Shown here piece by piece: positions 324 through 10,992 of a stretch of 64,000 nt of DNA (positions are counted from its first letter, which is position 1; the number at the start of each line of letters is the position of its first letter). The position numbers and the translations under genes were made by a program. A model generated the notes under the pieces. It was not told the DNA's origin and made no database searches. It saw nothing but the letters and a program-made list of their open reading frames with translations. Source of the DNA: Saccharothrix sp. S26 (GTDB taxonomy: Bacteria; Actinomycetota; Actinomycetes; Mycobacteriales; Pseudonocardiaceae); NCBI RefSeq assembly GCF_021390395.1, contig NZ_JAJUWT010000037.1:1-64000 (forward strand), read 5' to 3'.

Positions 324-1322
324 ATGCACGACACCCAACCGACGCCGGATCGGATAATGCGGCTCATCAACGGCTACTGGGCCACCGGCATCCTCGGCGC
401 GGCCGCGAGCCACTCGTTGTTCACCCACCTCGACGCGGGCGCGGACACCGCCGAGCGGGTCGCCGCCCTCGCCGGCATCTCCGAGCGGGGCGCGCAGACC
501 CTGCTCGACGGGCTGGTGAGCCTGGAACTGGTCGAGGTGCGCGACGGCCGCTACCGCAACACCGCCGACGCGGCGGAGTTCCTGGTCGAGGGCCGACCGG
601 CGGGCCTGAGCGAGTTCGCCAAGCTCAAGCTCGGCCACATGGGCACGATGGCGGCCCTGCCGGACGTGGTGCGCGCCGGGGGACCGGTGAGCGACGCGAC
701 GGTGGAGGTGGCCGACAACCCGCACTGGGAGAAGGTGGTCACGGCCATCGCCGCGCAGTCGGTGCCCGTGGCGACGATCGCCGCCGAGGCGCTGGGCCTG
801 GCCGACGCCGGCGAGATCTCGATCCTCGACGTCGGCGGCGGCTCGGGCGTGTACTCCGCCATCTGGCTGTCGCTCAACCCCGACGCCCGCGCGACGCAGC
901 TCGACTGGGGCCCGATCAACGCGATCGCCCGCCGGCTGCTGACCGAGCGTGGCGTGGCCGACCGGTTCACCTGCGTCGACGGCGACCTGCACACCACCGA
1001 CTTCGGCACGGCCGCCTACGACATCGCGGTGTACTCCCACATCGCCCACCAGGAGGGGCCGGAGGACAACATCGCGACGTTCACCCGGTTGCGTGACGCG
1101 CTCAAGCCCGGCGGCACGCTGGTGGTGAACGACTACGTGGTCGACGACGACCGCAGCGGCCCGCCGTTCGCCCTGCTGTTCGCCTCGGAGATGCTGCTCA
1201 AGAGCAAGCAGGGTGGCACCTGGCGGCGCGCCGACTACCACGACTGGCTGACCAAGGCGGGCTTCGAGGACATCACGTTCCAGCCCACCTCGTCGCCCGC
1301 GACCCTCATCTTCGCCCGCTGA
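324..1322 (+). CDS. SAM-dependent O-methyltransferase (Methyltransf_2 type)
   Basis: Predicted 332-aa cytosolic methyltransferase of the acetylserotonin/hydroxyneurosporene family that methylates small phenolic metabolites. The N-terminal ~90 residues form a winged-helix dimerisation domain. The SAM-binding motif LDVGGGSGVYSA lies near residues 168-179, and an LKPGGTLVVND motif follows. The ATG is chosen because AGGAGGG sits 5 bases upstream. Upstream in-frame codons lack a ribosome site and would add an Arg-rich shadow sequence. It lies beside rppA and faces a second methyltransferase convergently, so it probably methylates a naphthol or naphthoquinone hydroxyl; this role is inferred from context. 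Its stop codon lies inside a 7-bp tandem repeat. Confidence 0.85.
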   Translation: MHDTQPTPDRIMRLINGYWATGILGAAASHSLFTHLDAGADTAERVAALAGISERGAQTLLDGLVSLELVEVRDGRYRNTADAAEFLVEGRPAGLSEFAKLKLGHMGTMAALPDVVRAGGPVSDATVEVADNPHWEKVVTAIAAQSVPVATIAAEALGLADAGEISILDVGGGSGVYSAIWLSLNPDARATQLDWGPINAIARRLLTERGVADRFTCVDGDLHTTDFGTAAYDIAVYSHIAHQEGPEDNIATFTRLRDALKPGGTLVVNDYVVDDDRSGPPFALLFASEMLLKSKQGGTWRRADYHDWLTKAGFEDITFQPTSSPATLIFAR

Positions 1323-1351
1323 CCGCTGACCGCTGACCGCTGACCGCTGAC
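1321..1351. repeat. 7-bp tandem repeat (GACCGCT), about 4.4 copies
   Basis: GACCGCT is repeated head to tail starting within the methyltransferase TGA stop and ending just before the terminator hairpin. Every unit carries a TGA, so the array provides several backup stops across two frames. Slippage here would not disturb the protein. Confidence 0.85.
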
Positions 1352-10400: not shown

Positions 10401-10992
10401 ATTCGTCGAGTCGGGCCACCTCGGGTGCGACCCAGGTCGCCCCGGCCACTTCCGAATAGGGCCGCCCGCGCCAGAGCGCCAAACCGGCCTCGAACTCGCC
10501 CAACGCCTGTCGGGAATCGTGCCGGGCCATTGCCTGCCAGCCGGCCGTGGCGTGCTCGCCGAACCGGTGGACGTCGACGTCGACCTCGCGGTCGTCCAGC
10601 ACGTATCCCTGGGTGCAGGTGCGCAAGACTTTCGCCGGTGTCCGCGGCGCGCGATCCGGTTCCAACACCTTGCGCAAATTCGCCACGTACGCCTGCAACG
10701 AGGTCATGGCCGACGGCGGCGGGTGTCCCGCCCACAGCGCCTCGAGCATGACGTCCACCGCCACCGGCTGGCCGACCCGGCTCACCAGCAGCGCGAGCAG
10801 GGCGCGCTGCTTGGGCGTGCCCAGGTCGACCGGGCAGTCGCCGACCACCGCTTCGAGCGGGCCCAACGCGCTGATCCGCACCAGGGCCGGTGACGTGCCC
10901 GCAGGTCGCGCGTCGGCCCACCGGACGGAGCCCGGCAGGGCGCGACGGGTCGTCCCGACCGGTGCCGCGTCGGTCGTGCGTCGGGTTCTCAT
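7411..10992 (-). CDS. SARP-type regulator with AAA ATPase and TPR-like region
   Basis: Large (1193 aa) pathway-type activator. An OmpR-like winged helix spans about residues 38-120 (RISALGPLEAVV through VLRTCTQGYVLDD). A bacterial transcriptional activation (BTAD) helical domain follows to about 285. Next come a Thr/Pro/Ala-rich linker, an AAA/NB-ARC-like ATPase with Walker A GEPEIGKTS near residue 400 and Walker B LVVLLDHVH, and a long helical TPR-like C-terminus. It probably activates the adjacent naphthoquinone operons in response to ATP/ADP or a ligand. The ATG has only a weak GGAA upstream; alternatives are a TTG 60 bases earlier and a GTG at 10881. Confidence 0.85.
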   Translation of the reverse strand: MRTRRTTDAAPVGTTRRALPGSVRWADARPAGTSPALVRISALGPLEAVVGDCPVDLGTPKQRALLALLVSRVGQPVAVDVMLEALWAGHPPPSAMTSLQAYVANLRKVLEPDRAPRTPAKVLRTCTQGYVLDDREVDVDVHRFGEHATAGWQAMARHDSRQALGEFEAGLALWRGRPYSEVAGATWVAPEVARLDELRLSVVEARCAALLAVGAHEVAVAELEAFVQAHPLREYGCELLTLALYRAGRQADALTVLRTIQSRLAEELGVDPRPALKQLEHEILNQSPSLDWQPAQTTSTTPTPATPTLTTATATPPATAATPASTPTSAPVAQKPATPTIPATRVEGGAAVVPQVRVTGAPPTPAPDGEVFVGREAELRQLADALAAATAGRRRVVTVCGEPEIGKTSLLRRFADRVGAPVLWGTGPEHVDAPPLWLWEQVLRGAATCFPHVPVPAAVAELLDEDRRRGDDPGSDLRRFEAVVRYLGEVSDTVPLVVLLDHVHRADPGSLRLLAHLAESAPTSRLLLVVAYRSDEAAALAGTLAALARADVTRIRLTGLDVHETRTLASTVLRREVGGHTAQALWSRSEGNPFFLRELIKLSAADQGLDEPHPVPTPVREVVSRRVARLPRGTAELLSVAAVAGRHFDVEIVAQAASVEVEEALESLDRAIEAGLVVEDDQRLGWFRFTHALAAETLYETTGRMRRALVRRRIGAAAARVWTGGGETAAGIARHRPPAAQLDATTGPARVAEATLPGDAARLWRQALAAADLAEQEDLDRHSLLIGLGASLYRAENFRDGLRVFTRAMEEILSAPGTPDTARLVATAVAAVSELDLCPDGRGEVDDRLVGVIERALPHVVDPAQRGRLLACLAVARRHDEDPAGRAAMSDEALALAGASTGNAESATLLHLRAVALSGPDHLDQRLRAVAELLALPDLPPLAQARARRLRAQALVVLGRVHEAAAELELAAEHAESPSLRTRLGWARAGLLLLDGRWAEADEVSRTTYDRCARASWDDARFNRVLQRWEAAHLTGGGQHLVDELRSAAESSGRPALQAILVMALVDAGLARDARIALHRFPRGPEEDHLWLYARCWALLAAARLGETDLVARWRAQLLPYRHLACSAPDLVVSGPVAYFTAEAALALGDPDAALADLAVATDVARRMGALPWLARVRDAVEPAHRFEAAPCG

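Follow-up and report, generated by a model that had tools for sequence, protein, structure and literature searches.

The stretch analysed here (the window, 64,000 nucleotides of Saccharothrix sp. S26, contig NZ_JAJUWT010000037.1, hereafter C37, from base 1) carries at positions 324–10992 a locus of seven genes centred on rppA, which is predicted to encode a type III polyketide synthase making 1,3,6,8-tetrahydroxynaphthalene (THN). rppA (4544–5659, forward strand; 595.6 bits to 1U0M; triad C138/H270/N303) is followed on the same strand by a cupin gene (5647–6213; PF07883), likely encoding a flaviolin-forming oxygenase, and by a gene for a DegT-type pyridoxal phosphate (PLP) aminotransferase (6210–7358; PF01041, 318 bits; K186), likely a flaviolin aminotransferase and called DegT below. 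The rppA and cupin frames overlap by 13 bp and the cupin and DegT frames by 4 bp (GTGA), so translational coupling of the three genes, as claimed in an earlier sequence-only reading of this DNA, is plausible. The gene list and coordinates of that reading were right, with open reading frames, families and the RppA triad all confirmed.

To the left of this trio lie genes for the O-methyltransferase MT1 (324–1322, forward; PF00891, Methyltransf_2, 56 bits), the O-methyltransferase-like MT2 (1408–2478, reverse; PF00891, 59 bits) and an AMP-forming ligase of the fur5 type, a possible CreM-type diazotase (2522–4105, reverse; PF00501, 133 bits; start codon set from its orthologues, MKGS), and to the right lies a SARP-ATPase regulator gene (7411–10992, reverse; BTAD and AAA_16 domains). 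In many relatives MT1 sits directly 3′ of DegT, the fur4-type place. MT2 has an unusual S-adenosylmethionine (SAM) motif, DLAGNTGLGA, and retains the catalytic-type His; SAM-independent enzymes like AlpH exist (PMC10477347), and such a role for MT2 was considered from this motif and not adopted. Orthologues of the regulator (60–80% identity) adjoin the cluster in the sister genome G022, in Saccharothrix carnea (G018) and in G049, a relative outside the genus, and a partial one (67%) stands at the locus end in Amycolatopsis anabasis. The window genes are 82–95% identical (regulator 73–80%) and kept in order in two sister genomes, so the set is not a chance assembly.

RppA aligns to the THN synthase 1U0M with 595.6 bits against 136.6 bits for the next-best match, and combines this close similarity with the complete catalytic Cys138, His270 and Asn303; it also retains C106 and Y224, and has Ser at position 184, where 1U0M has Cys. 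The genome encodes two further type III polyketide synthases (C10:258096 and C8:341548), the former a 68% paralogue of RppA with similar matches (68–72%) in five sister genomes. The two cupin metal motifs, together three His and one Glu, are represented here by H49, H51, E56 and H108; cupins such as MomA form flaviolin. DegT retains the PLP lysine K186 and D157, and joins the conserved lysine to linkage with rppA and cupin, as expected of a Fur3-type enzyme.

Scanning genome contigs with a DegT alignment gave 139 relatives, the best 80 of which were retained as named loci. DegT is at least 70% identical in 71 of these, and there it is accompanied by rppA (68/71), the cupin (68/71), the ligase (57/71) and MT1 (51/71), some of the misses being due to short contigs or contig ends; in the nine loci with DegT of 53–66% identity, none of the four genes was found. 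This co-occurrence bears on the idea that DegT is a sugar aminotransferase with no relation to naphthoquinones, which draws on its nearest solved structures and NCBIfam models being mostly sugar aminotransferases. Those models score DegT far under their cut-offs, and a sugar-pathway domain occurs in none of the seven genes (the neighbours being only partly annotated), and we regard a sugar role as very improbable.

The same set of functions is tabulated in PMC9686526 as fur1 (type III polyketide synthase), fur2 (cupin), fur3 (aminotransferase), fur4 (methyltransferase) and fur5 (ligase), and PMC7463872 describes 8-aminoflaviolin formation in the furaquinocin family by a type III polyketide synthase, a monooxygenase and an aminotransferase. 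By gene content, the window set is thus the early, fur1–5-type part of furaquinocin-type meroterpenoid clusters and not new. Because it corresponds to fur1–fur5 and to the 8-aminoflaviolin aminotransferase described for that family, the predicted trunk is known biochemistry and no new combination; the path from THN through flaviolin to aminoflaviolin put forward from the sequence is supported by its identity with the fur1–fur3 set tabulated in PMC9686526.

The locus does not end with MT1. The contig end with which C37 starts falls within an insertion sequence, whose right end (1–123, forward) consists of a transposase-like frame tail with its stop at 104–106, assigned by eye and not by a hidden Markov model (HMM) match, and a terminal repeat at 104–123, followed by CTAG at 124–127; this lies 200 bp left of MT1, the first gene of the locus. 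In G022, whose chromosome is complete and uninterrupted here, and in S. carnea the cluster extends past MT1. The stretch missing from C37 was found in the window genome at C5:124–4639, 91% identical to G022 and stopping where C37 begins. The terminal repeat, TAACCCT(A/T)GGAATCAATCAT, is present at window 1–127 and at C5 1–127, the two copies differing in one base, and CTAG adjoins both and is single at the corresponding place in G022. The insertion falls at the wrbA stop codon, which the CTAG preserves, and interrupts no frame.

In G022 order, and collinear with both sister strains, C5 encodes a quinone oxidoreductase of the wrbA type, a sigma factor of the SigJ type, MT2b (the third methyltransferase of the cluster), a protein with an AhpD/CMD domain and an F420-type oxidoreductase of the luciferase family (TIGR03619, 233.6 bits, cut-off 166.9). 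We infer that C37 and C5 are two halves of one cluster, split at the insertion sequence, the join being drawn from synteny. The view of the window locus as complete and compact accordingly gives way to one with five further conserved genes beyond the insertion sequence.

Furaquinocin-type clusters also contain a prenyl arm, in which an ABBA prenyltransferase attaches a terpene. Searching fetched loci is a poor guide to its absence, and was rejected as evidence: 33 of 71 loci lack a prenyltransferase in the fetched stretch though most of their genomes have one. Because in-locus absence misleads in this way, whole genomes were searched. No ABBA prenyltransferase (PF11468) was found by profile search in the whole window genome, in G022 or in S. 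carnea, which extends to the genome, for this family, the earlier observation that no prenyltransferase is visible; in G049 and G043, relatives outside the genus, the match lies inside the cluster. For the named loci, 50 of 68 were submitted and 49 genomes examined, S. carnea among them, and PF11468 was present in 44; the five without it were S. carnea, Amycolatopsis bartoniae, Saccharopolyspora soli, A. anabasis and Streptomyces sp. B-S-A6. Within the bacterial family, DegT occurs at E ≤ 1e-140 in 10 of 390 genomes, six of them prenyl-free and four with a prenyltransferase (G158, G161, G199 and G412); PF11468 was found in four of the seven family genomes searched, and for the five of these already among the 49 the results agree.

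Nor was a polyprenyl synthase found inside the cluster, the nearest lying 11 kb from degT. This gene (18613–19572, reverse strand, some 8 kb to the right of the regulator gene) has similar counterparts on the same side in G022 and S. carnea, and was rejected as the missing prenyl arm because it is only 52% identical to the synthase that relatives carry in the cluster. Together with a single gene for a DMATS-type prenyltransferase elsewhere in the genome (C20:18893–19702), it is what could be cited for a meroterpenoid pathway whose prenyltransferase belongs to another family or is encoded elsewhere. The DMATS gene, however, adjoins one for tryptophanase (606 bits, cut-off 285; the pair lies on C20 stretch L128, 5340–7810), and on account of this neighbour looks like an indole enzyme, the two likely forming an indole prenylation pair. 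DMATS matches also occur in G022 and G018, but were absent from two of six prenyl-free genomes tested, and an ABBA match was found in none of the seven prenyl-free genomes (UbiA-type enzymes lay outside the search). A relocated or unrelated prenyltransferase therefore seems to us improbable.

The prenyl-free genomes share a specific gene pair. Among 63 cluster-bearing genomes, an orthologue of the luciferase-family gene at 73–100% identity was found in seven (next-best match 55%): the window genome (G000), G022, G018, A. anabasis (G171), A. bartoniae (G252), S. soli (G438) and Streptomyces sp. B-S-A6 (G094). These are exactly the seven genomes without an ABBA prenyltransferase, and none of the other 56 has it (48 of these are prenyltransferase-positive by the PF11468 HMM and eight by in-locus tblastn only). 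The AhpD-like gene adjoins the luciferase-family gene in all seven, which span Saccharothrix, Amycolatopsis, Saccharopolyspora and Streptomyces. In G094 a 13-kb contig (L122, 1–12964) carries creE, creD, a sigma factor gene, an MFS gene, MT2, the ligase, MT2b and the AhpD-like gene, with the luciferase-family gene at its end, and a separate 6.8-kb contig carries rppA, cupin, DegT and wrbA; the two contigs presumably belong to one cluster. Of the relatives, this L122 run tells most about the source of nitrite. MT2b alone was rejected as a marker, second MT2-like copies being present also in prenylated L037, L051, L063 and G049.

This pattern also speaks to the possibility that the locus is a degraded meroterpenoid cluster, from which the prenyltransferase and terpene genes were lost and in which the remaining genes are relics or makers of a flaviolin-type pigment. 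The in-cluster prenyltransferase and polyprenyl synthase of G049 and G043 and the splitting of the window copy at an insertion sequence would fit such decay. Against it, the core frames are open, the catalytic residues checked are retained and the genes are 82–95% identical across three Saccharothrix genomes; the insertion, with the wrbA stop codon kept by CTAG, lies outside the frames; and loss goes with the same gene pair in seven of seven genomes of four genera. Decay is in our judgement a poor bet.

How often the prenyl-free state arose was examined on a tree of RppA, DegT and ligase, with 59 rows in a quick version, reduced by hand to 47 by dropping 12 rows, L052 for its long branch and 11 others whose kin were represented (48 rows with L090 added). 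In the best 47-row tree the six Pseudonocardiaceae prenyl-free genomes do not form one clade, since a group of prenylated Streptomyces is placed between them; two changes are required by well-supported branches, and a single clade appears in 0% of 200 bootstrap trees. A one-clade tree for these six was nevertheless not rejected on the 47 rows (approximately unbiased test, p-AU 0.116), and scored better in the 59-row quick tree. One clade of all seven was rejected once Streptomyces sp. B-S-A6, whose row joins two contigs, was added (p-AU 1e-15). The prenyl-free state has thus been combined with two or more lineages of the trunk.

What the ligase does determines how the end of the pathway is read. 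It has the ANL core motifs (TSGTTG, YGQSE, GDVGY, LKVQR) and belongs to the conserved set, being present in 57 of the 71 loci noted above. Its best NCBIfam match is a generic ligase model, with the AvaA6 diazotase model (NF058622) second and no CreM model among the 25 matches listed; the predicted structure (mean predicted local distance difference test score 35.9) was unusable. In Streptomyces sp. B-S-A6 the ligase lies on the same run (L122) as homologues of the nitrite-forming CreE and CreD (CreD 666 bits, cut-off 650), and this neighbourhood in one prenyl-free genome suggests that the ligase may be a diazotase.

Counting CreD by identity alone was rejected as ambiguous with pcaB, and the curated model NF052556 was used. 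CreD homologues occur in 12 fetched loci, and the two of these that were checked exceed the cut-off; in all three loci scanned with NF052556 (L089, L075 and L122), nitrosuccinate lyases near cluster genes pass the cut-off, as does a lyase in 38 of the 63 genomes, including one of the seven prenyl-free ones (G094). Four other prenyl-free genomes have a lower-scoring lyase that neighbours a CreE homologue at a site apart from the cluster. The best lyase candidate of the window genome is pcaB, adjoining a protocatechuate dioxygenase gene; creD was not found in this genome. The ligase also occurs without a CreD at E ≤ 1e-150 in prenylated genomes such as G049, G158, G100, G105, G106 and G107. Two papers provide context: PMC11705231 lists NapB4 of the azamerone cluster, 43% identical to CreM, as a putative diazotase, and according to PMC10777205 the nitrite genes are missing as well from about half of the ava-like clusters, outside nitrous acid being among the routes suggested there.

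An aminonaphthoquinone end product, whose amino group stays while the ligase would activate an acid or form an amide, has an appreciable chance, somewhat short of even: the window genome yielded no CreD, the family assignment of the ligase is generic, and the ligase is also retained in clusters where no CreD exceeds the cut-off. The CreE and CreD homologues beside the ligase in Streptomyces sp. B-S-A6, the CreE–CreD pairs elsewhere in four more prenyl-free genomes and the putative role of NapB4 (PMC11705231) point the other way. On balance, the ligase is more likely than not a diazotase in the group, and may be one in the window strain. The amino product predicted at the outset stands as one option, beside a diazo product should this conserved ligase be a diazotase.

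Compared with known systems, the cluster shares its rppA, cupin, aminotransferase, methyltransferase and ligase trunk with furaquinocin and its relatives marfuraquinocin and flaviogeranin, and a quinone oxidoreductase with strain Je 1-369 (both PMC9686526), and 8-aminoflaviolin is reported or proposed for furaquinocin relatives in PMC7463872 and PMC12814520. It differs in that neither an ABBA prenyltransferase nor an in-cluster polyprenyl synthase was found, and it adds the luciferase-family oxidoreductase, the AhpD-like protein and an extra methyltransferase. Napyradiomycin and azamerone (nap) clusters have the same THN trunk with the CreM-homologous NapB4 (PMC11705231), a possible counterpart of the window ligase; napyradiomycins, unlike the predicted product here, are prenylated and often halogenated, according to PMC10897937. 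Cremeomycin and avenalumic acid systems (CreE, CreD, CreM, AvaA6, AvaA7) possibly share nitrite and an AMP-forming ligase acting on an aromatic amine, but use another substrate, and the window genome has no creD found and a ligase far below the AvaA6 cut-off. RppA–cupin flaviolin pathways share the THN synthase and cupin, to which the window cluster adds the aminotransferase and tailoring set. Among the furaquinocin-type loci themselves, some prenylated clusters from rarer actinomycetes have a DUF3050 gene adjoining rppA (L018, 10419–11180; L031; L054), with a 56% relative in A. bartoniae (L039), and a bc1-type cytochrome b-like gene, recognised by eye only, occurs in 12 loci (e.g. L089, 3807–5525), perhaps as a resistance copy.

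We consider it fairly likely that the window locus encodes the right half of a furaquinocin-type pathway in a prenyl-free form, in which the luciferase-family/AhpD-like pair acts instead of prenylation; the basis is sequence, namely the gene set, synteny, the insertion-sequence split, the failure to find an ABBA prenyltransferase and the swap pattern. In such a pathway RppA would convert five malonyl units to THN, the cupin would oxidise THN to flaviolin, DegT would form 8-aminoflaviolin, and MT1, MT2 and MT2b would methylate the ring. The ligase would probably use nitrite and ATP to diazotise the amino group, which would yield a diazo product or lead toward nitrogen removal, and the luciferase-family enzyme, its AhpD-like partner and the wrbA-type quinone reductase would oxidise or reduce the naphthoquinone, with control, judging by families, by the SARP and SigJ-type factors. 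The product is probably a methylated, nitrogen-bearing naphthoquinone.

Several points weigh against this reading. Every reaction and product in it is inferred. The prenyl-free label needs two to three changes on the tree and leaves only three independent pairs, too few for a test (pairs test on identical labels: three pairs, p 0.25), and kinship among genomes inflates the 7-versus-56 contrast, whose Fisher value of 1.8e-9 ignores it and is therefore not taken as proof. The relatives are the best 80 of 139, and the 63-genome search left out L056, L078, L092 and ten loci with an in-locus prenyltransferase, these ten showing, within the stretch fetched, no luciferase-family or AhpD-like match above 45%; the locus of prenylated G199 contains an AhpD-family match of 46%. 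The window genome is a 54-contig draft and encodes the DMATS-type prenyltransferase outside the cluster. The ligase scores 94 bits with the AvaA6 model, against a cut-off of 975 and below the generic model; no nitrosuccinate lyase was found at E ≤ 1e-150 in the window genome or S. soli, and since the lyase candidate of the window genome is pcaB, the ligase there would need another nitrite source or has a different role. In at least ten prenylated genomes, too, the ligase is present but no CreD exceeds the cut-off.

More tentatively, and with rather less confidence than in the pathway itself, these clusters may represent a non-terpenoid class of diazo- or aminonaphthoquinones in Pseudonocardiaceae and some Streptomyces, in which the F420- or flavin mononucleotide (FMN)-dependent luciferase/AhpD swap for prenylation occurred more than once, with different trunk lineages, so that the module would function as a unit. 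We did not recognise a prenyl-free cluster of this kind, or find a product with such a naphthoquinone scaffold, in the open-licence literature, a weak negative as subscription papers were mostly outside the search. Mining genomes for the prenyltransferase only would overlook this prenyl-free branch. PMC7463872 describes the 8-amino step as a cryptic transamination in furaquinocin biosynthesis, its true function unclear, and a prenyl-free cluster family that shares this trunk and ligase would offer a simpler system for studying the purpose of the amino group and of the ligase.

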